Both the position numbers and the translations under genes were made by a program. Shown piece after piece: positions 1 through 61,451 of a DNA stretch of 64,000 bases; within the stretch, counting starts at the first letter, position 1, and each line of letters begins with the position of its first letter. Below the pieces are notes generated by a model that was not told the origin of the DNA, ran no database searches, and saw only the letters and a list, made by a program, of their open reading frames with translations. The stretch is from NCBI RefSeq assembly GCF_041435115.1, contig NZ_CP108046.1, forward strand, positions 248,001-312,000. Direction: 5' to 3'. The DNA comes from Streptomyces sp. NBC_00289. Its GTDB lineage: Bacteria; Actinomycetota; Actinomycetes; Streptomycetales; Streptomycetaceae.

Positions 1-768
1 GGGGCTCTGTTGGTTCCTTATCGTGCCGTACTCGATGTCCCGCATGCCCTCGTGGAGTGGCTGACGATACTGATCGTCACCCGGGAGGGTGACCGAAGAT
101 GCAAGCTGTCCCCGTCGCGGCGGGCCCTGGTCGCACTGGTGTACCTGCGGAAGAACGACACCCTGCGACAGCTCGCGGCCGGTTTCGGCATCGGTTTGGC
201 ACCGCCCACGCCCATGTCCACGCGGTCGTGGCACTTCTGGCCGATCTTGCACCGGGATTGACAGCGGCCCTGAGATCGGCCGACACCCGGTACGTTCTTC
301 TGGACGGGACACTCGCCGAATGCGACCGAACCGGCGACGGCCGCGCGGACTACTCGGGCAAACACCGCCGACACGGCGTGAACCTACAGGTCGTGGATAG
401 CACCAGATGGAACACTCGTCTGGATTTCGCCTGCTCTGCCGGGTCGTACTCACGATCTCACCGCGGCCCGCCGACACCGGATCATCGCCACCTGTATCCG
501 TCTCGGCATCCCTGTCATCGCAGACCGGAGCTACCAGGGCGCCGGCGACATCGTCGCCGTCCCGCACCGACGCAAACCCGGGAAAGACCTCACACTCAAA
601 CAGAAATGCGTCAACCGGGCCCACTCCCGACTTCCTTGGCCTGTCGAACGGACCATCGCGGAGATCAAGACCTGGCGCATCCTCCGCAAAGCGCGCTGCC
701 ACCCCACCGCAATCACGTCAATCACCAAAGCCATCCTCACCCTGGAGACTCACCGCTGAACAAGCTCA
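1..768 (+). pseudogene. IS5-like transposase relic (truncated by window edge)
   Basis: Reads as the DDE_Tnp_4-type transposase found intact at 38.5 kb, in three broken frames. The first frame (from 10) gives the start [16 protein letters not shown] and the helix-turn-helix region. A frameshift near 190 moves to [10 protein letters not shown], then [15 protein letters not shown] and [13 protein letters not shown], and another near 400 moves the rest to a third frame. The right terminal repeat (GAGCTTGTTCAG type, inverted) ends at 768. The left end lies outside the window. At the point where IS5-A copies have an extra C, this copy is in frame (TCG GCC GAC). Dead by multiple indels. Confidence 0.8.
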
Positions 769-1619: not shown

Positions 1620-2492
1620 GAGCTTGTTCAGCGGTGAGTCTCCAGGGTGAGAATGGCTCTGGCGATTGACGTCATCCGGCTCGGGTTGCAGTGGGCTTTG
1701 CGGAGGATCCGCCAGGTCTTGACCGATGCGATGGATCTCTCGACAGGCCACCGCAGACGCGAGTGCGCCCGGTTGACGCTTCTCTGTTTGACGGTGAGGT
1801 CTTTGCCCGGTCGTCGTCTGTGGGGCACGACGACGATGTCACCGGCGCCCTGGTAGCCGGGGTCGGCCAGGATCGGGATGCCCAGGCGGATACACGTAGC
1901 GATGATCCGGTGCCGTCGGGCCGCGGTCAGATCGTGGGTCCGGCCGGGCAGCGCGGGCGAGATCCACACCAGCGTGCCGTCGGGAGCGGTCACCACCTGC
2001 AGGTTCACGCCGTGCCGGCGGTGCTTTCCCCAGTAGTCCGCCCGGCCGTCGCCGGTCCGGTCGCACTCGGCGAGTGTCCCCTCGAGCAGCAGGTAGCGGG
2101 CGTCGGGGCGATCTCAGGGCCGCGGTCAGACCGGGCGCGAGCTCTGCGAGGTGGCCGATCACGGCGTGCACGTGGGCGTGTGCGGTGCCCAGGCTGATAC
2201 CGAAGCCGGCCGCGAGCTGACGCAGGGTGTCGTTCTTCCGCAGGTATACCAGTGTGACCAGGGCGCGCTCGGACGCTGGCAGCTTGCACCTGCGGTCACC
2301 TTCACGGGTGACGATGAGCATCGTGACCCACTCCACCAGGGCATGCGGAACATCGAGTACGGCACGATAAGGAACCAACAGAGCCCCAAGGCTGAAGAGT
2401 TGAGCGTAGACACCTCGCTCAACAGCCCTGGGGCTCTGCCCGTTCCGCCCTCACCACACCTCACCCGATCAGTAGCCGAACTGAACAAGCTC
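1620..2492 (-). mobile_element. IS5-A copy 1
   Basis: An 873-bp element with 12-bp terminal repeats GAGCTTGTTCAG at both ends and a 3-bp target duplication ACT (1617-1619 and 2493-2495). It is nearly identical to copies at 8842, 11250 and 51934. Confidence 0.9.
1628..2378 (-). pseudogene. IS5-A transposase, +1 frame break
   Basis: The N-terminal part (from 2378) holds the DUF4096/HTH-like start [17 protein letters not shown]. The C-terminal part (ending 1628) holds the DDE core: [25 protein letters not shown] and a terminal PVERSIASVKTWR. The halves are in different frames. Inserting a +1 slip at CCC-CGA (near 2105-2108) restores a 250-residue protein collinear with the intact relative at 38517. 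The same break is present in all four copies, so it is either programmed recoding or a lesion that spread. Confidence 0.8.
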
Positions 2493-8841: not shown

Positions 8842-9714
8842 GAGCTTGTTCAGTTCGGCTACTGATCGAGTGAGGTGTGGTGAGGGCGGAACGGGCAGAG
8901 CCCCAGGGCTGTTGAGCGAGGTGTCTACGCTCAACTCTTCAGCCTTGGGGCTCTGTTGGTTCCTTATCGTGCCGTACTCGATGTTCCGCATGCCCTGGTG
9001 GAGTGGGTCACGATGCTCATTGTCACCCGTGAAGGTGACCGCAGGTGCAAGCTGCCAGCGTCCGAGCGCGCCCTGGTCGCACTGGTATACCTGCGGAAGA
9101 ATGACACCCTGTGTCAGCTCGCGGCCGGCTTCGGTATCAGCCTGGGCACCGCACACGCCCACGTGCACGCCGTGATCGGCCACCTCGCAGAGCTCGCGCC
9201 CGGTCTGACCGCGGCCCTGAGATCGCCCCGACGCCCGCTACCTGCTGCTGGAGGGGACACTCGCCGAGTGCGACCGGACCGGCGACGGCCGGGCGGACTA
9301 CTGGGGAAAGCACCGCCGGCACGGCGTGAACCTGCAGGTGGTGACCGCTCCGGACGGCACGCTGGTGTGGATCTCGCCCGCGCTGCCCGGCCGGACCCAC
9401 GATCTGACCGCGGCCCGACGGCACCGGATCATCGCTACGTGTATCCGCCTGGGCATCCCGATCCTGGCCGACCCCGGCTACCAGGGCGCCGGTGACATCG
9501 TCCTCGTGCCCCACAGACGACGACCGGGCAAAGACCTCACCGTCAAACAGAGAAGCGTCAACCGGGCGCACTCGCGTCTGCGGTGGCCCGTCGAGAGATC
9601 CATCGCATCGGTCAAGACCTGGCGGATCCTCCGCAAAGCCCACTGCAACCCGAGCCGGATGACGTCAATCGCCAGAGCCATTCTCACCCTGGAGACTCAC
9701 CGCTGAACAAGCTC
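8842..9714 (+). mobile_element. IS5-A copy 2
   Basis: An 873-bp element with terminal repeats GAGCTTGTTCAG. The flanks are CAC and AGT, so unlike copies 1 and 3 there is no 3-bp duplication. This suggests a later recombination between copies. Confidence 0.88.
8956..9706 (+). pseudogene. IS5-A transposase with CCC-C +1 site
   Basis: Frame 0 from 8956 encodes the HTH half through GLTAALRSP. Codon CCC at 9226-9228 is followed by C9229. Skipping that C continues [18 protein letters not shown] into the DDE half ending 9706. Without the slip, frame 0 runs to a 179-residue product. The site combines a CCC codon able to re-pair one base downstream with a rare CGA codon in the A site. Confidence 0.8.
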
Positions 9715-11249: not shown

Positions 11250-12122
11250 GAGCTTGTTCAGCGGTGAGTCTCCAGGGTGAGAATGGCTCTGGCGATTGAC
11301 GTCATCCGGCTCGGGTTGCAGTGGGCTTTGCGGAGGATCCGCCAGGTCTTGACCGATGCGATGGATCTCTCGACGGGCCACCGCAGACGCGAGTGCGCCC
11401 GGTTGACGCTTCTCTGTTTGACGGTGAGGTCTTTGCCCGGTCGTCGTCTGTGGGGCACGACGACGATGTCACCGGCGCCCTGGTAGCCGCGGTCGGCCAG
11501 GATCGGGATGCCCAGGCGGATACACGTAGCGATGATCCGGTGCCGTCGGGCCGCGGTCAGATCGTGGGTCCGGCCGGGCAGCGCGGGCGAGATCCACACC
11601 AGCGTGCCGTCCGGAGCGGTCACCACCTGCAGGTTCACGCCGTGCCGGCGGTGCTTTCCCCAGTAGTCCGCCCGGCCGTCGCCGGTCCGGTCGCACTCGG
11701 CGAGTGTCCCCTCCAGCAGCAGGTAGCGGGCGTCGGGGCGATCTCAGGGCCGCGGTCAGACCGGGCGCGAGCTCTGCGAGGTGGCCGATCACGGCGTGCA
11801 CGTGGGCGTGTGCGGTGCCCAGGCTGATACCGAAGCCGGCCGCGAGCTGACACAGGGTGTCGTTCTTCCGCAGGTATACCAGTGTGACCAGGGCGCGCTC
11901 GGACGCTGGCAGCTTGCACCTGCGGTCACCTTCACGGGTGACGATGAGCATCGTGACCCACTCCACCAGGGCATGCGGAACATCGAGTACGGCACGATAA
12001 GGAACCAACAGAGCCCCAAGGCTGAAGAGTTGAGCGTAGACACCTCGCTCAACAGCCCTGGGGCTCTGCCCGTTCCGCCCTCACCACACCTCACCCGATC
12101 AGTAGCCGAACTGAACAAGCTC
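11250..12122 (-). mobile_element. IS5-A copy 3
   Basis: 873 bp, terminal repeats GAGCTTGTTCAG, target duplication AAT (11247-11249 and 12123-12125). Inserted into the IS256 relic. Confidence 0.9.
11258..12008 (-). pseudogene. IS5-A transposase, +1 frame break
   Basis: Same organisation and same extra C as the copies at 1628, 8956 and 51942. The DDE half reads [18 protein letters not shown]. Copies differ from each other by only a few substitutions. Confidence 0.8.
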
Positions 12123-38393: not shown

Positions 38394-39280
38394 GAGCGTT
38401 TTCAGGGTGGCCACTGATCGAGTGATGCAAGGGGATGGCTGGCAGGGCAACGGACGAGGCTCCCAGGCAGTTGAGAGAGGTATCTGACATGCGATCTCGG
38501 TTGCCGGGGAGCCCCGTTGATTACGTATCCTGCCGCACTCGACCTCCCGCATGCCCTCGTGGAGACGGTCACGATGCTGATCGTCCTTCGTGAGGGTGAC
38601 CGCCGGTGCAAGCTCCGTCCGTCCGCGCGTGCGGTTGTCGCGCTCGTGTACTTGCGCCAGCACACCACGCTGGCCCAGATCGCCGCTGGTTTCCGCATCA
38701 GCGTCGGGACCGCGCACGCCTATGTCCGCTCCGTGGTGGGCCTGCTGGCGCGCCGGGCTCCGGGGCTGACGCGGGCCCTGCGTGAAGTGAAGGCCCGGGC
38801 GGAATACGTGCTGGTGGACGGCACCCTCGCGGAGTGCGACCGGGTCGGTGACGGCCGCGGGGACTACTCGGGAAAGCACCGGCGTCACGGTGTGAACCTG
38901 CAGGTCGTCACCGATCCGGACGGCACCATCGTATGGATCTCGAAGGCGCTGCCCGGTCGCACCCACGACCTCACCGCCGCCCGCACCCACCGGATCATCG
39001 ACACCTGCCGCAGACTCGGTATCCCGGTCCTGGCCGACCTCGGCTACCTCGGTGCCGGCGGCACCATCACCACCCCGATCCGACGTTCTCCCGGCAAAGA
39101 ACTCAACCGCCGGCAGCTATCGCTGAACAGGGCTCATGCCCGCCTGCGCTACCCGGTCGAGCGCGGCATGGCCCGATTGAAGACCTGGCGGATCTTCCGC
39201 AAAGCCCGCTGCAGCCCCACCTGGCTCACCACCGCAGCCAAAGCCGTCCTCACCCTTGAGAGCTACTGCTGAAAATCCTC
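38394..39280 (+). mobile_element. IS5-B copy 1
   Basis: 887 bp, ends GAGCGTTTTCAG and GAGGATTTTCAG, 3-bp target duplication AGT (38391-38393, 39281-39283). Sits in the ISL3 transposase gene. Confidence 0.92.
38517..39272 (+). CDS. IS5-B transposase, intact
   Basis: 251 residues in one frame. The N-terminal HTH_Tnp_4-like domain ([38 protein letters not shown]) is followed by DDE_Tnp_4: first Asp in [19 protein letters not shown], then [18 protein letters not shown], second Asp in [19 protein letters not shown], Glu in [19 protein letters not shown]. It is the intact reference for the frame-broken IS5-A transposases and identical in sequence to the inverted copy at 40192. Probably active. Confidence 0.93.
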
Positions 39281-51933: not shown

Positions 51934-52806
51934 GAGCTTGTTCAGCGGTGAGTCTCCAGGGTGAGAATGGCTCTGGCGATTGACGTCATCCGGCTCGGGT
52001 TGCAGCGGGCTTTGCGGAGGATCCGCCAGGTCTTGACCGATGCGATGGATCTCTCGACAGGCCACCGCAGACGCGAGTGCGCCCGGTTGACGCATCTCTG
52101 TTTGACGGTGAGGTCTTTGCCCGGTCGTCGTCTGTGGGGCACGACGACGATGTCACCGGCGCCCTGGTAGCCGCGGTCGGCCAGGATCGGGATGCCCAGG
52201 CGGATACACGTAGCGATGATCCGGTGCCGTCGGGCCGCGGTCAGATCGTGGGTCCGGCCGGGCAGCGCGGGCGAGATCCACACCAGCGTGCCGTCCGGAG
52301 CGGTCACCACCTGCAGGTTCACGCCGTGCCGGCGGTGCTTTCCCCAGTAGTCCGCCCGGCCGTCGCCGGTCCGGTCGCACTCGGCGAGTGTCCCCTCCAG
52401 CAGCAGGTAGCGGGCGTCGGGGCGATCTCAGGGCCGCGGTCAGACCGGGCGCGAGCTCTGCGAGGTGGCCGATCACGGCGTGCACGTGGGCGTGTGCGGT
52501 GCCCAGGCTGATACCGAAGCCGGCCGCGAGCTGACACAGGGCGTCGTTCTTCCGCAGGTATACCAGTGCGACCAGGGCGCGCTCGGACGCTGGCAGCTTG
52601 CACCTGCGGTCACCCTCACGGGTGACAATGAGCATCGTGACCCACTCCACCAGGGCATGCGGAACATCGAGTACGGCACGATAAGGAACCAACAGAGCCC
52701 CAAGGCTGAAGAGTTGAGCGTAGACACCTCGCTCAACAGCCCTGGGGCTCTGCCCGTTCCGCCCTCACCACACGTCACCCGATCAGTAGCCGAACTGAAC
52801 AAGCTC
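51934..52806 (-). mobile_element. IS5-A copy 4
   Basis: 873 bp with GAGCTTGTTCAG ends. Flanks ATT and AT-G: the second copy of a presumed ATT duplication has lost a base. Inserted at the right end of ISAs1 copy 5. Confidence 0.88.
51942..52692 (-). pseudogene. IS5-A transposase, +1 frame break
   Basis: As the copies at 1628, 8956 and 11258, with the same extra C near 52420. DDE half VKQRCVNRAHSRLRWPVER. A few substitutions are private to this copy (for example [12 protein letters not shown]). Confidence 0.8.
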
Positions 52807-54506: not shown

Positions 54507-57500
54507 TTAGCCGCCGTTCCTAGCTCGTCCCAGTGTTCCTGCTGCTTCTCGCACCAGTTGCTCTCGCGACTTGACAAGTCTGATCGCAGCGTCGACCCAA
54601 TACGCTGCCTGGCCAACTGCTGCTTTATAACCATCGCGGGCGAGTTGCCTTTCATAGGCATCCGGCGATGCTGTCTGCTCGTGTCTCACAGCAGCCCTTA
54701 CGGCGGCGTCGAAAGCTGATCGGGCGTTTGCGAGATTGACCTGCGCCTCCCGGAGGGCGCCCTCCCACATGGCCTTCTTTATTTCCGCGTAGCCGATCGC
54801 TATCTCCCTTTGTGCCTGCACAGTGTCTGGGATAGCAGGTTTGACCATCTCGCTGACTTGGGCGGCGCATTTTTGGTCTGTGGCGCACATGGTGCCGGTT
54901 CCTGATGCACCTGTGACTGTGGGTGCTGCTGCGGGGATGAGGGCGTCGGCTACTGCAGCAACAGCTGTCGCTCCCCCGACCACAACTAGCACTCCAATCC
55001 ATTGAGTGATGTAGGAGTCTCTGGTAGTGATCCAGACTTCATTAAGTCCGTTGGGTCCTTCGTATTTCTGGTAGGCGGCTGGGGTTCCGTCGGCGGTGCG
55101 GAGGTCGGTGGCGCAGTCTTCGGTGCAGAGTCCGGCGGCGGCTGTGGTGTTGTTGAGGATGTCGCCTGATCCGGCTTGGGTGCTTCCCTTGGCGTCGGCT
55201 TTGGCGGTTTTGGCTGCTGCTCTGTCGGCGGCTTCGATGGCGGCTTTGTCGGCTGCGTTGGCCTGGTTCCAGAGTGCTTCGGCGTTGGAGCCGCTGTTTT
55301 CTCCGGTGACGGGGGTGCAGCCGCAGTCGTTGCCGATGTAGCCCTTGCCGCCGTAGACGCCGGGTGCGCCGGTTGACTGTGCGCCGGCGATGCCGCTGGA
55401 TCCGCTGCCGGGTTGGTCGCATTCACCGGGGTGGGTGAAGGCGCAGGTGACTTTGCCGCTGGGGTCGGTGTTGTTGAGGGGGTCGTTGTGGACGTAGGTG
55501 TAGGGGTTGAGGGTTTGGCTGGTGGTGGTGTCCAGGACGGGGTCGGGGGTGATGAAGGTGTGATTGTTGGGGTCGTAGAGGCGGCCCTTCATGTTGATGA
55601 GGCCGGTGTTGGGGGTGTTTTCGTGGCCGGTGAAGGTGCGGGTGAGGTCGCCGGTGGTGCCGGTGAAGGGTGTGCCGTTCTTTGTGACGAGGCGGCCGAA
55701 GGGTTCGTAGTAGAGGGTCTGGAGGGGGTTGCCTGAGGTGTCCAGGGTGGTGGCGGTGGAGCCGAGGCGGTCGGTGAGGTTGTACTGGACGTCGGTCTTG
55801 ACGCCGTCGAAGACGGCCTGGCCGATGCTGCCGTCGGGGCCGGCGAGGTGGAAGACGTCCTTGTCGCCGCTGCCTTTGTGGAAGCGGTGCTCGAACAGGC
55901 CTCCGATGTAGAGGGTGTTGCCGATGGGGGTGGCTTCCATGATCTTGTTGTTGAAGGCGTCGTAGCGGTAGGTGGTGGTCACGCCCCGGGTGGTGACGGT
56001 GCGGGGCAGGTCGAAGGCGGTGTAGGTGACCTGGCGGGTGACGGTGCCGGCGGCGTTTTTCACGGTGGTCTGCCGGCCGCGGTTGTCGTAGCCGTAGGTT
56101 TCCTTGGCTCCGCCCATGCTGGTGGCATCGTGACCGGTGACGGTATGCGGCTGCACGGTGCCGGTGGGGTAGGTGAGGGTGTCCGCAGTGCCGTCGGGCT
56201 GGCTGATCTTGGTCAGGCCGCCCAGGGCGTCGTAGCTGTAGTCGATGCTCTGTGAGCCTGCGTCATGGCCGAGGTTCCAGCCGGTGAGCTGGCCCACGGT
56301 GTTGTAGTCGTAGGTTTCCGAGCGCAGCGGGGTGGTGGCGTCGTCGCGGGTCTGCTTGATGACCCGGCCGGCCGCGTCGTAGTCGTAGTCCAGGCCCATC
56401 ACCTTGGTGCCCGCGCCGGTGGTGGCGGTGAGGGTGTCCAGGCGTCCGCCGGCGCTCTGGTAGGTGTTCTTGAGGGTGACGCCGTTGCCGAGCTGGGCGG
56501 TGTCCGTCTGCAGGTCGGGGGTGCGCTTGCTGACCGTCCACAGGGTTTTCGGGTCCTGGCCGGGGGTGATGTCGGTGACGGTGTTGGGGTAGCCGGCTGC
56601 GTTGTAGCCGTAGCGCAGGGTGAGCGGCTCGCGTCCGGTGACCTCGGGGTAGGTCAGCGTGTCGGCGGTGCCGTCTGCGTTGTAGGTCTGCGAGGTGGTG
56701 TAGGAGCGGCTGGTGGTCTGGTCGGTGTATGTGGTGCCGGCGGGCCGGCCGTAGGAGTCGTAGGTGAAGTCGGTGCGGATTTTATCGATCTGTTCGGGGC
56801 TGGTGGCGTAGTCCAGCTGGCCGATGCCGTGGGGGGCGCTGTCGTAGACGAACGCGGAGATGCCGTCTTCGGTGGTGCGGGAGGTCATCCGGCCCAGGTC
56901 GTCGTAGCCGAAGACGCTCTGGTGCTGGGCGTCGCCACGGGTCTCCCGCTCGATGAGGCCGTTACCGAAGTAGGCGGTGTCGGTGACTCCGCGGTCCGGT
57001 TCGCTGAGCCTGGTGCGGCGCCCGCGGACGTCGTACTGCATGGTGGTGACGTTGCCCTTGGCGTCGGTGATCGACTTCAGCAGGTCGAACGGGGCGTAGG
57101 TGTAGGCGGTGTTGAGGCCCTCGGCGCTGCCGTCGGGCTTGGTGCGGTAGTCGGTGTGGACTTTCAGCCGGCCGTCGGCGTCGTAGAGGTCGAGCCGGGT
57201 GGCGCCGGTGGGGTCGGTGACCGTCGTGGAGGCGAAGGCGGGTTCGAACACGGTGGATTTGCCGTCCGGGCCGGTCGACTTCACCATCCGGTCCAGGCTG
57301 TCGTATTCGAAGTAGCTGGTTGCCTTCCCTCCGGTCGGCGAGGGAGCGGACGTGGCCACGGTGCGGCCCAGCGTGTCGTAGGTGACGGCGGTGGCCAGTT
57401 TCCCGCCGACGTTGTCGAAGTCCTTGCCGAAGGAGGCGACCGGCCGTCCCAGGACATCGGTGGAGGCGGTGCTGGTCTTGGGTCCGGTGGTGGTGGTGAC

Positions 57501-60500
57501 GCTCACGCCGTTGATGCCGCCGGCCAAGTCGCCGCGGCCGGCGTAGGTGATGTCGGTGGGCGCAGTGCCGTCGGTCTCGGCGTGGACCTGTCGGCCCAGA
57601 TCATCAATTTTCGCTGTGGTGGTGCGGCCGTTGACGTCTTCGCTGCCCAGCGTGATGCCGAACGCGGGATGGGTGACCATCCATGTCGCCGGCCGGTAGG
57701 CGGCCACCTTGTAGTCGACCCACACCAGGGAGGGGTAGATCTCCTCGTTCGGCTGGCCGGGAAACGCCGGCTCGTAGGCGGTGTATACGGTGCGGTCCGG
57801 GCGCCCCGGCGTCTTGGACGTCACCGACGTCACCGCGCCCCGCGCGTTGTAGGCGGTGATCGTCGACTCGCGCACCCTGTCGGCATCATCGTCCGTGTTG
57901 TTTTTCTCCACGTCCGTTCTGGTCAGCAGGCCGCGCTCGTCGTGGAGGTAGGAGACGTTGCGTTCCCGCGTGGCGCCGTCGGCCGCGAAGCTCACCGTCT
58001 TGGACGAGAGAGCCTCACCGACCCGCCACTCCTCGATCAGCTCGGCCGCGGTGTCGAACTTCGTCGTCGTGATGAGCGCGGTGCCGCCATCGGTGGCCCG
58101 CGACAGCGAGGTCGGGTTGCCGAACTCGTCGAACACCGCAGCACTGTCGGTGCGCCGAAGCGCCGTGGCCGGCTCACTGACACCGGTGATCGCTGCGCCC
58201 GCCGCCTGGCCGTCCCAGTCGATAGCGACTTGCTGCGCGCCGGACTGTTCCCATTCCTTGGTGGTCGAGCTCGTGTCGAAGACAGCCATCACCTTGCCGC
58301 CGTGCTGCGGCCGGGCCTCATAGGCGGAAGACGTGCGTGTCACCCGCGCGCGGGCCGTGGCCGGCTTCGCGGCAGCCTGCTCGGCGGTAAGGATCGCCAC
58401 CACCGTGGTGACCAGCGAAGGCCGCCCGACCTCCGGGTAGAAAGCGCCGTTGCTGACGCTCTTGCGGTGCGCGAACACCATCTCCGTCTGGGAGGCACGC
58501 CGCTTGTCGAAGACCCGGAACGTGCCGAACCCCAGGGAGCCGTTGCCCCGCAGGTCAGTGACCGGATCGGCGTAGGTGTACTGCCACACGCGGGCCGCGC
58601 CGGCAGAAGCGGTGTTGACCTGTCCAGCCCGCGACACCCGCTGGCGCACCACCGGGAAGCCCTTCTTCGGACACGTCAGCGGATACGTGCACGTGGCCGT
58701 CTCGGGCGTGCTGGACCAGGTGTTGGAGTAGGTGATGCTCTCCCGCTGCCAGGCCACTCCCTCGTCGTGCACCGACACCAACTTGTCGACCTGGCGTTCG
58801 TTTTGCTGCAGGATCCGCATCCGCCCCGAATCGATCTTCACCACGTCGGTGCGGCCGTCACCGTTGACATCCGCCAGCTGCGAAGTGGCCCGCCCGGCAC
58901 TCTCGTCCTTAGTGCCGCCGCCCAGATCAATGTCGGAGGAGGTGAACGTGCCGTCACCGTCCGAAACCGCAAGATGCGTCGCTACGGCGTCGAAGGAGAC
59001 GATGTCATCCCGGCCGTCGCCGTTGACGTCAGCGACCCGCAAATCCATCGAATCGTCATGCCCGATCGACACACTGTGCGGATCGGCAAGGCCCCGGCCA
59101 GTGTTGAACAGCAGGATGCCGTGCAGATCGTAAATGTGCTTGGCCGGGTCCGTCTTGGGCGGCAGCAGCAGCACATCCTCCAGACCGTCCGCGTTGAAGT
59201 CCCCCGGAAACGTCTCGAAACCAGACTGCTGGGGTGCCGCCCGGCTGTAGAGGCGGCCGGACTTGACCACCGACTGCGCACTCACCGTGGCCACGCCCGC
59301 ATCACTGACACTCAGCGACGACACCGACGCCAGACACGTGCCGTCCGCCGACACGTTCGCCGACAGCTGCTCGGCCCGGCCGTCACCGTCCAGATCCGAC
59401 ACTCCCAGATCACAACGGGCCTTCATACTGCTGGCCGTAGCCGGCTTGAACGTGCCCGGCCCGTCCGCGATCCGCACCGACACCGTCGGCACCTTGTCCG
59501 ATGCCGCCCCATCGGGGCTGAGCATGTCCAAACGGCCGTCACCGTTCACATCCGCCAGGTTACCCACCGCGTTCTCCGGCAGGTCGAACGGCGTCATCAT
59601 GTCCTCAACGAACCGGGCGGCCTTCTTGTCCCACTTCAGCAGATGCGACGTCCACTTCTTCGTCACCGCCGAAAAGACCGGCAGCAAAATCTCCGCCGCC
59701 CCGTCGACGTTCGCGTCCACCGCGCGCGCCCGCCCCAGATCGGTCAGCTCCCCCGGCCAGCCCAGCGCCGGGGTCAGATCCCTCTGCGCATCCGGCGAGA
59801 CACCGAACTTCACCCGGTCCGGCTTCCCCGGCCCCCGCGAATACAGAAGATCACTTCTGCCGTCCCCGTCCAGGTCCAGCACCCGCATCCGCGGATTACC
59901 AGCCGCCGTGTCCAGTGTCACCGAACCCCCGTCGACCACCGTGAACGACGGCGCCGCCGGCTGACTGGACCAGCCGAACTCCTTCTTCTTCACACACCCG
60001 CCCGCGCTGCCGCACTTCTGCAGCGAGGCCAGCAGACTCTGCCTGCTCGACGACACCGTGTAGGCGAGGTGGTACTGCCACGCCAGCTTCGTGTCATCCG
60101 GCATCGGCGCCAGCATACGGATCGTCTTCAACCGCTTCGTATGCGCAAACCGCACCCCCGCCGTATACGAGAACCTGGCCCCCGCAGCATCGTCCTCGTA
60201 ATCGAACTCCACCCGCCGCTTCGCCGCCACCCCCCCGTTGCTCGTATACTCGATCTTGGAGATGAGGATTTCGTTGCGGGCCCTGCCGTCCTTGTCGTAC
60301 TCGTAGGAGACCGTGTTCCCCGACGCATCCGTCTCATGGTCCAGCAGCCACGTCACCCGCACCGGCACCGCGAGATCCGTATCCATCAAAGGATTGTTGG
60401 CCGTGTCGAAACCGACCCCTGTCCTCGACCGGGTCGCCGTGTGCGGCAAAAACGTCTGCGTCACCCCCTTCTTGTCCGTCACCTCGAACCGGTCCGGACC

Positions 60501-61103
60501 CGTAATCCCCGGCGTCGTCCCCCCGAACGCCACAATCCTGCGGAAGCTGTTGCTCCGCGTCCGGTACTCCGAGCCGTCCCCTCCGTACTTGTCCGTGCCG
60601 CCCTGCACCGCCCCGACAAGAATCAGACGCTCACCATTCAGACAAAACCGGTCGTTGGGATCGAAGTGCACACCCCCGTGCGTGCCGTCCACCGCCACCG
60701 ACTGTGCGCACCGGGCAATCGCCGACCCCGCACCCGACAACGACCACCCCACCCCCACCGAAGACCGACCGGCCCCCGACGCATACTGCAGCGACAGCCG
60801 CGGACTCATGGCCGCCCGCCCCGCCGGCACATCCAACGGCACCGACGTCGTAAACACACCCGACGGCAACACCTCCCCCGACGACGGCAAATACCCCGCG
60901 TCTGCTCCCTTACCTACCGCCGCGGACACAGACAACGCCTTCGGAATCACCGGCACACCCGACACCGGATCAGCCGCCGACGCCACCGGCGCCTGCCCCA
61001 CCACCCCAGCCACCAACGCCGCCACCACAACCGGCGACAACGCAGCCAACCAACCAGGTCTCAGCAGACCCCCCGACCGCAACACACCACGACCAGCCAC
61101 CAT
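54507..61103 (-). CDS. Giant SpvB/FG-GAP/RHS-repeat protein, candidate polymorphic toxin or surface protein
   Basis: 2198 residues from the ATG at 61103 (TGAGGCG upstream); a signal peptide with cleavage after APVASA near 40. Domains: SpvB/TcdB-like N-terminus about 55-330 (GYLPSSGEVLPSGVFTTSV, VGWSLSGAGSAIARC); about 400-760 at least six FG-GAP/VCBS calcium-type repeats (DLDGDGRSDLL, DVNGDGRLDML, DVNGDGRDDIV); about 1150-1830 YD/RHS repeats; RHS core about 1830-1855 (GLINMKGRLYDPNNHTF, ITPDP). After the junction NDPLNNTDPSG the last 320 residues are variable: Cys-rich DCGCTPVT and LCTEDCATDL, a hydrophobic helix about 2035-2060 (GVLVVVGGATAVAAVADAL), then a charged coiled-coil-like tail. No known nuclease or deaminase motif seen. 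No immunity gene follows; an IS1380 scrap does. Confidence 0.88.
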   Translation of the reverse strand: MVAGRGVLRSGGLLRPGWLAALSPVVVAALVAGVVGQAPVASAADPVSGVPVIPKALSVSAAVGKGADAGYLPSSGEVLPSGVFTTSVPLDVPAGRAAMSPRLSLQYASGAGRSSVGVGWSLSGAGSAIARCAQSVAVDGTHGGVHFDPNDRFCLNGERLILVGAVQGGTDKYGGDGSEYRTRSNSFRRIVAFGGTTPGITGPDRFEVTDKKGVTQTFLPHTATRSRTGVGFDTANNPLMDTDLAVPVRVTWLLDHETDASGNTVSYEYDKDGRARNEILISKIEYTSNGGVAAKRRVEFDYEDDAAGARFSYTAGVRFAHTKRLKTIRMLAPMPDDTKLAWQYHLAYTVSSSRQSLLASLQKCGSAGGCVKKKEFGWSSQPAAPSFTVVDGGSVTLDTAAGNPRMRVLDLDGDGRSDLLYSRGPGKPDRVKFGVSPDAQRDLTPALGWPGELTDLGRARAVDANVDGAAEILLPVFSAVTKKWTSHLLKWDKKAARFVEDMMTPFDLPENAVGNLADVNGDGRLDMLSPDGAASDKVPTVSVRIADGPGTFKPATASSMKARCDLGVSDLDGDGRAEQLSANVSADGTCLASVSSLSVSDAGVATVSAQSVVKSGRLYSRAAPQQSGFETFPGDFNADGLEDVLLLPPKTDPAKHIYDLHGILLFNTGRGLADPHSVSIGHDDSMDLRVADVNGDGRDDIVSFDAVATHLAVSDGDGTFTSSDIDLGGGTKDESAGRATSQLADVNGDGRTDVVKIDSGRMRILQQNERQVDKLVSVHDEGVAWQRESITYSNTWSSTPETATCTYPLTCPKKGFPVVRQRVSRAGQVNTASAGAARVWQYTYADPVTDLRGNGSLGFGTFRVFDKRRASQTEMVFAHRKSVSNGAFYPEVGRPSLVTTVVAILTAEQAAAKPATARARVTRTSSAYEARPQHGGKVMAVFDTSSTTKEWEQSGAQQVAIDWDGQAAGAAITGVSEPATALRRTDSAAVFDEFGNPTSLSRATDGGTALITTTKFDTAAELIEEWRVGEALSSKTVSFAADGATRERNVSYLHDERGLLTRTDVEKNNTDDDADRVRESTITAYNARGAVTSVTSKTPGRPDRTVYTAYEPAFPGQPNEEIYPSLVWVDYKVAAYRPATWMVTHPAFGITLGSEDVNGRTTTAKIDDLGRQVHAETDGTAPTDITYAGRGDLAGGINGVSVTTTTGPKTSTASTDVLGRPVASFGKDFDNVGGKLATAVTYDTLGRTVATSAPSPTGGKATSYFEYDSLDRMVKSTGPDGKSTVFEPAFASTTVTDPTGATRLDLYDADGRLKVHTDYRTKPDGSAEGLNTAYTYAPFDLLKSITDAKGNVTTMQYDVRGRRTRLSEPDRGVTDTAYFGNGLIERETRGDAQHQSVFGYDDLGRMTSRTTEDGISAFVYDSAPHGIGQLDYATSPEQIDKIRTDFTYDSYGRPAGTTYTDQTTSRSYTTSQTYNADGTADTLTYPEVTGREPLTLRYGYNAAGYPNTVTDITPGQDPKTLWTVSKRTPDLQTDTAQLGNGVTLKNTYQSAGGRLDTLTATTGAGTKVMGLDYDYDAAGRVIKQTRDDATTPLRSETYDYNTVGQLTGWNLGHDAGSQSIDYSYDALGGLTKISQPDGTADTLTYPTGTVQPHTVTGHDATSMGGAKETYGYDNRGRQTTVKNAAGTVTRQVTYTAFDLPRTVTTRGVTTTYRYDAFNNKIMEATPIGNTLYIGGLFEHRFHKGSGDKDVFHLAGPDGSIGQAVFDGVKTDVQYNLTDRLGSTATTLDTSGNPLQTLYYEPFGRLVTKNGTPFTGTTGDLTRTFTGHENTPNTGLINMKGRLYDPNNHTFITPDPVLDTTTSQTLNPYTYVHNDPLNNTDPSGKVTCAFTHPGECDQPGSGSSGIAGAQSTGAPGVYGGKGYIGNDCGCTPVTGENSGSNAEALWNQANAADKAAIEAADRAAAKTAKADAKGSTQAGSGDILNNTTAAAGLCTEDCATDLRTADGTPAAYQKYEGPNGLNEVWITTRDSYITQWIGVLVVVGGATAVAAVADALIPAAAPTVTGASGTGTMCATDQKCAAQVSEMVKPAIPDTVQAQREIAIGYAEIKKAMWEGALREAQVNLANARSAFDAAVRAAVRHEQTASPDAYERQLARDGYKAAVGQAAYWVDAAIRLVKSREQLVREAAGTLGRARNGG

Positions 61104-61240
61104 CGCCTCACAACCAGAGAAGACAAGGCCGAAACCCACGGCATCAGCCACCTCCCCCCAAACAACCCCCACCCCCACCACCCCGCCAGAGCAAACCCCA
61201 CTCACACCACACTGAGCTTGTTCCACCATTGGTGTGGTGG

Positions 61241-61340
61241 TCAGGCTGCGAAGGCGGTCTCGTATTCGGCGGGGCGGTAGCCGCGTCCGGATGGCGTCCC
61301 GCTGAGTGGTGTAGGGGATCTCCGCGGTTGAGTGCGCGGG
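61241..61340 (-). pseudogene. IS3-family OrfB C-terminal scrap
   Basis: Reads GYRPAEYETAFAA to a stop at 61241, the end of an IS3 integrase. Only about 25 codons. It lies upstream of the RHS gene; 61104-61240 should hold that gene's promoter but none stands out. Confidence 0.4.
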
Positions 61341-61451
61341 TTCTCTGCTCCCTGGGGTGCACCGTCTGCCGGTGTCTGCTCCCTGCTCAACTGGCAGGCC
61401 ATCGTGCAACTGTCCGGAGTGGACGGGCAGTTCGACCCCAGGGGGTGCACG

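Follow-up and report, generated by a model that had tools for sequence, protein, structure and literature searches.

A shared extra C in a multicopy IS5-family element of Streptomyces probably marks a defective lineage moved in trans rather than programmed +1 frameshifting

IS5-family elements are short, carry one or two reading frames and end in short inverted repeats, and those of the ISL2 group produce a 3-bp ANT target duplication. A transposase frame that is split in two is commonly taken as a sign of programmed frameshifting, and predicted programmed shifts occur in the IS5 family (PMC3281130; PMC3196728; PMC5009743). Two frames, HTH then DDE, are described for the IS427 group in Paracoccus (PMC3281130) and for ISCaa elements (PMC3196728), as for the element studied here, IS5-A. 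However, the Paracoccus fusion is reported with a complete DDE and a conserved motif (PMC3281130), whereas that of IS5-A is incomplete in nine of ten loci, and the relatives of IS5-A, in contrast to the predicted shifts of the IS427 group, have a single frame. IS1237, from Leifsonia xyli subsp. cynodontis, is the closest published parallel that we found. It is described as an 899-bp element in 24 nearly identical copies, none with a complete ORF; a relative, ISLxx6 (85%), is intact, and translational control was proposed (PMC2516522). Both IS1237 and IS5-A are actinobacterial IS5-family elements with many near-identical copies, no complete frame and an intact relative, but IS1237 needs a -1 shift together with stop readthrough (PMC2516522), whereas IS5-A carries a +1 lesion, has mostly lost the first Asp of DDE and has its intact relative, IS5-B, in the same genome. 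MITE-like elements also resemble IS5-A in their intact ends, defective transposase and presumed movement in trans, although they are shortened (PMC10969869) and IS5-A is still full length. An earlier note on this DNA proposed that IS5-A uses a programmed +1 slip or that a relative supplies its transposase, and the predicted shifts in the family made the first idea a reasonable one.

The window, the whole 64,000-nucleotide stretch analysed (C1:248001-312000, strand +), lies within an 11.0-Mb genome and carries four IS5-A copies of 873 bp, at 1620..2492 (strand -), 8842..9714 (strand +), 11250..12122 (strand -) and 51934..52806 (strand -), exactly where the earlier note had placed them. The element has 12-bp ends, GAGCTTGTTCAG / CTGAACAAGCTC, as seen in the second copy. 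The window and a further 60-kb stretch at 500-560 kb have inverted copies near the other chromosome end, and IS5-A copies are paired, one in each arm; loci are therefore given for one arm only. Each arm has ten insertion loci, of which the window contains four, the others being L010, L012, L014, L016, L018 and L020, and the pieces compared across arms were identical in 10/10 pairs. Seven loci are full length, L018 is full length but split by an insert, L016 lacks the right end and L020 the left end. Clean 3-bp ANT duplications flank four of the eight loci with both ends, namely L004 (AGT) and L006 (ATT) in the window, which are the copies at 1620 and 11250, and L010 and L012 (both ACT), showing that these copies are real insertions; the targets are mostly C-ANT-G. 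The other four (L002, L009, L014 and L018) have mismatched flanks, the copies at 8842 and 51934 being among those without matching duplications, so that the earlier count of two clean duplications in the window holds. The insert in L018 (L147:1983-5379) is 3397 bp long, follows element base 207 and, as named by eye, has a 361-aa tyrosine-recombinase-like frame and a 626-aa frame. The left flank of L010 (C1:233288-233317), directly before IS5-A, resembles by eye the 3' end of a tRNA gene.

In the copy at 8842, frame 0 opens at TTG 8956 with the N-terminal part of the transposase (8956..9228, strand +; HTH_Tnp_4, PF13613, E 3.3e-15) and continues through 88 unrelated codons to a stop at 9493-9495. 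The C-terminal part lies in frame +1 (9230..9703, strand +; DDE_Tnp_4, PF13359, E 1.4e-26), and the two are separated by CCCC with the extra C (9226..9229, strand +), followed in frame 0 by CGA. The same extra C had been reported for all four window copies, which we confirm, and the site reads TCG-CCCC-GAC in all ten IS5-A loci, against GCC for CCCC in the related relic group. Reading +1 at CCC-C gives a 249-residue IS5-type transposase, and the joined frames are collinear with, and 84-88% identical to, four single-frame Streptomyces transposases (P0003-P0006), in agreement with the full-length collinear protein described earlier. These proteins (247-249 aa) match joined IS5-A in length within two residues and in having HTH_Tnp_4 and DDE_Tnp_4, but have a single intact frame, Asp99 and no extra C, with S-A-D (three of the four) or S-A-N (one) at the site where IS5-A has S-P-D. 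By its DDE transposase of IS5 type, its 873 bp and its 12-bp ends IS5-A belongs to the IS5 family. Its place in the ISL2 group is putative, with ANT duplications at half of the IS5-A loci with both ends and at 3/3 IS5-B copies checked. In the NCBIfam IS5 model NF033581, intact relatives and IS5-B scored 102, 82 and 81 bits, the cut-off of 140 being unreached.

The joined frame also differs from its relatives at residue 99, which the earlier note had overlooked. The codon GAG at 9251..9253 (strand +) places Glu there in nine of the ten IS5-A loci, including all four window copies, and only L010 keeps Asp99. Asp occupies this position in all 120 homologous proteins listed out of 1802 and, at the DNA level, in 119/119 outside loci. 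The residue is the D of a D-G-T motif that opens the DDE_Tnp_4 match, and we take it, from its role in the superfamily, to be the first catalytic Asp of DDE; this role and its invariance suggest that D99E would inactivate the enzyme. A sequence search for a solved relative gave only chance-level matches (E 0.06 or worse), and a structure prediction of an intact relative from 18 sequences was set aside at a mean pLDDT of 44.5. The second DDE Asp (Asp172; 9470..9472, strand +) and the Glu (Glu213; 9593..9595, strand +) are kept, the latter reached in the +1 frame only. In all ten loci Ser116 is replaced by Trp (TGG; 9302..9304, strand +); Ser is found in 118/120 listed homologues, but one outside locus (L038) also has Trp, and Trp116 therefore need not inactivate. 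L010 has Ser at residue 211, near the catalytic Glu213, where Pro is present in 118/120 listed proteins and 111/117 outside loci, and R229H is found in L002, L004 and L006, with His also in one outside locus. In addition, a common 5-bp deletion ahead of the Glu codon is seen in L014, L018 and L020, out of nine loci that span this part of the element, and together with the +1 at CCCC it leaves the net shift out of frame; the right flanks of the three loci differ.

Together with intact IS5 relatives in the genome, these features indicate that IS5-A is probably a defective non-autonomous IS5 lineage that was moved in trans and shuffled by recombination. The extra C would have separated the reading frames of the DNA-binding and DDE domains, and the first catalytic Asp would also have been lost in nearly all copies; with their ends still intact, the copies could have been inserted by a transposase acting in trans and later shuffled by recombination between elements. 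IS5-A has what is expected of a non-autonomous element, namely intact ends, a defective transposase and target duplications (clean in 4/8), and mutated elements are reported to be mobilised in trans by related transposases (PMC10969869). The likeliest supplier would be IS5-B, present in the same genome as intact, near-identical copies with similar ends and a matching type of target; another candidate is a relative of IS5-A that has since disappeared. In the window IS5-B lies at 38394..39280 (strand +) with an ORF at 38517-39272 (251 aa). The genome has 12 full-length IS5-B loci; 11 occur in both arms, which gives 23 copies, and another copy is in two pieces. No more than two substitutions and one 1-bp deletion separate the copies, and 21/23 have an intact frame. 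Of the two possibilities raised in the earlier note, supply by a relative thus fares better than the slip, given so intact and abundant a family, the supply itself being what we infer. Some points count against this explanation. The left ends of IS5-B (GAGCGTTTTCAG) and IS5-A (GAGCTTGTTCAG), with the shared inner stretch ACTGATCG, are similar yet differ inside the 12 terminal bases, which makes cross-recognition putative; a strong preference for acting in cis is described for those IS transposases that arise by frameshifting (PMC5009743); and L010, by its Asp99, might still give a slip product.

IS5-A is one of three broken multicopy groups beside IS5-B, which is the outcome we would expect of mobilisation in trans by one abundant intact element. 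IS5-C, present at two loci (L022 and L024), includes the relic at 1..767 of the window (strand +), which begins about 105 bases upstream of the window and is 84% identical to IS5-A. This relic had been described (as 1-768) as in frame at the site, and it does lack the extra C, but has -1 and +1 indels of its own. IS5-D is represented at five loci (L140-L144, C1 about 327-520 kb) by closely similar copies, every one with the same -1 lesion in a run of C (ATCGCC-CCATC). Identity among its three complete copies is 99.2-99.5%, each of them is flanked by a clean ANT duplication, and in two loci (L141 and L143) the left end is partly lost. The DDE residues of IS5-D are kept, which makes it a better candidate than IS5-A for a check of recoding or of the sequencing. 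In the right flank of L141, an IS5-A-type end (CTGAACAAGCTCAGT) is seen 10 bases beyond the IS5-D end, which suggests nested or adjacent insertions.

A pattern allowing 0-5 bases at the site matched 24 places in the genome (12 + 12), accounted for as 20 IS5-A and four relic-group places (10/24 printed individually), and neither this count nor the matches listed in a protein search showed an IS5-A without the extra C. An intact IS5-A source within the assembly was rejected, as every listed IS5-A protein match breaks at residues 91-93, among the matches listed (150 of 219 first-look candidates scored); the unsplit full-length protein matches listed belong to the IS5-B group (68%) and to groups near 54%. 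The tolerant pattern had no match in 391 other genomes of the genus, and an exact pattern found no near-identical IS5-A in genome_contigs; pattern searches of this kind miss diverged copies. The best plasmid match to IS5-A was 79%, and the best of 100 relatives by DNA were 73-75% identical to it. An intact source may have been lost from the strain or may lie on an unassembled replicon.

The earlier note argued that copies sharing a lesion at different targets must have moved with it. This is too strong, because variants appear to be reshuffled among the copies, and gene conversion could then also have spread the lesion. Tree and four-gamete tests covered 19 sites (17 coding) in the seven full-length copies; two more sites, 318 and 839, vary in the interrupted L018 alone and entered only the polymorphism test below. 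On the best of 945 trees the 10 parsimony-informative sites take 18 steps, and 28/171 site pairs fail the four-gamete test (a wider count of 61 incompatible pairs includes positions 875 and 876, outside the element, and truncated copies). Judging from this homoplasy and the four-gamete failures, variants were probably exchanged between IS5-A copies. Conversion can imitate the insertion of an already broken copy, which means that none of the IS5-A insertions can be placed after the lesion in time. The lesion might accordingly have spread mainly by gene conversion after intact IS5-A elements had inserted, no broken element having moved, a course of events that we find unlikely. It would agree with the mismatched flanks of four of the eight copies, as expected of recombined copies, and a precedent is described in Wolbachia wBm, where non-functional IS copies underwent gene conversion (PMC3196728). 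However, conversion would have had to reach all ten loci and leave none unconverted, while D99E (9/10) and the 5-bp deletion (3/9) did not; the order of incompatible sites along IS5-A is not significantly clustered (P 0.18); and the near-identical IS5-D copies, with clean duplications and a lesion common to all five loci, are more simply explained by copying than by conversion.

Far less probable, in our view, is that programmed or leaky +1 frameshifting at CCC-C makes an active IS5-A transposase and drove its spread. Besides the collinearity of the fused frame with intact relatives, this idea can draw on the nature of the site, CCC-C being described as a weak +1 site that reaches up to ~1% in E. 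coli when adjoining a start codon, as compared to under 0.003% for ordinary non-programmed frameshifts (PMC4519876), and on the +1 shifts predicted for the IS5-family elements ISCaa8 and ISCaa13 (PMC3196728). A recoding site should be conserved in related elements, and we surveyed 119 outside loci (29 from genus relatives, 10 from plasmids and 80 from genome_contigs), a set that leans to intact genes, 80/119 being best matches of one search, and whose loci are not all independent, the same element coming from two collections in cases such as L036 and L074. Usable hit pairs at the site were obtained for 114 of them (five had none), of which 111 were exactly in frame, two had -1 and one -13, and none of the 114 had +1; at a control junction further on, 112/116 were in frame. 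The closest outside loci at the DNA level are L148, L149, L150 and L071 (79-80% identical), and the extra C looks derived and confined to the IS5-A lineage.

Neither a slow A site nor a stimulatory structure downstream is apparent. CGA is no stop, and although only two of the six Arg codons are rarer, it makes up 27/3611 codons (7.5 per 1000) in 12 probable genes nearby, for which GC content per codon position was the sole criterion of choice; in-frame CCC-C is common in these genes (18 in 3611 codons; 10/12 have one). The 100 bases downstream fold with an ordinary z of -0.88, with 39/200 shuffles as good. The earlier note had looked to conservation of CCC-CGA amid synonymous changes as support for recoding. 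None of the 114 usable outside loci has the +1, and nine of the 19 coding polymorphisms are synonymous, against 5.7 expected without selection (P 0.08; 4/7 upstream of the site, P 0.19; 5/12 downstream, P 0.20), a slight lean that is compatible with or without weak past selection and gives no clear purifying selection. The fusion product also appears to lack a complete set of catalytic residues. Trp116, His229 and the change at 211, being shared with one or a few outside loci, need not inactivate it, and L010 keeps Asp99, but D99E affects the other nine loci, L010 itself has Ser211 next to the catalytic Glu, and the second frameshift at three loci is unbridgeable by the slip. Taken with the survey, these lesions make the programmed slip unlikely. 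A version in which low-level slippage at CCC-CGA in an ancestral, Asp99-bearing IS5-A drove the spread, the recoded element now decaying, seems to us equally improbable; if true, today's truncated or D99E products would be only inhibitors.

The two arms also allow the quality of the assembly to be judged. The window differs from its inverted copy by one indel over 63.9 kb and the 60-kb stretch from the other arm by 6 gap columns and one substitution, i.e., 7 gap columns against one substitution over ~124 kb, nearly all of them single-base indels in short runs. The sole difference in the window is one C in a C run at 61154, within a 2300-codon frame (54507-61409, strand -). Two IS5-B copies of the left arm (L128 and L131) have 1-bp deletions in short C and G runs, in one arm only, which are probably residual assembly errors; one-arm 1-bp indels in short runs make such run-length errors likely. 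Random sequencing error was ruled out as the origin of the extra C by its presence in both arms at 10/10 loci and by the single indel between the arms of the window. A systematic sequencing or assembly error in the repeated element, as these run-length differences and the two IS5-B deletions might suggest, is the least probable origin of all, since the likely errors are arm-specific and the extra C is present in both arms at every locus, the relic differs by GCC against CCCC, which is more than run length, and D99E and the 5-bp deletion are not of homopolymer type.

The common lesion of IS5-A is thus real, and an ordinary explanation is more likely than recoding. Recoding can be told apart from a dead element carried along by others if one checks the catalytic residues, looks for second lesions, surveys relatives outside the genome and tests whether variants are reshuffled between copies; compared with the reading proposed for IS1237, this case argues for checking the catalytic residues first. 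With three broken multicopy IS5 groups beside one intact relative, this Streptomyces-like arm offers a setting for direct tests of cross-mobilisation.
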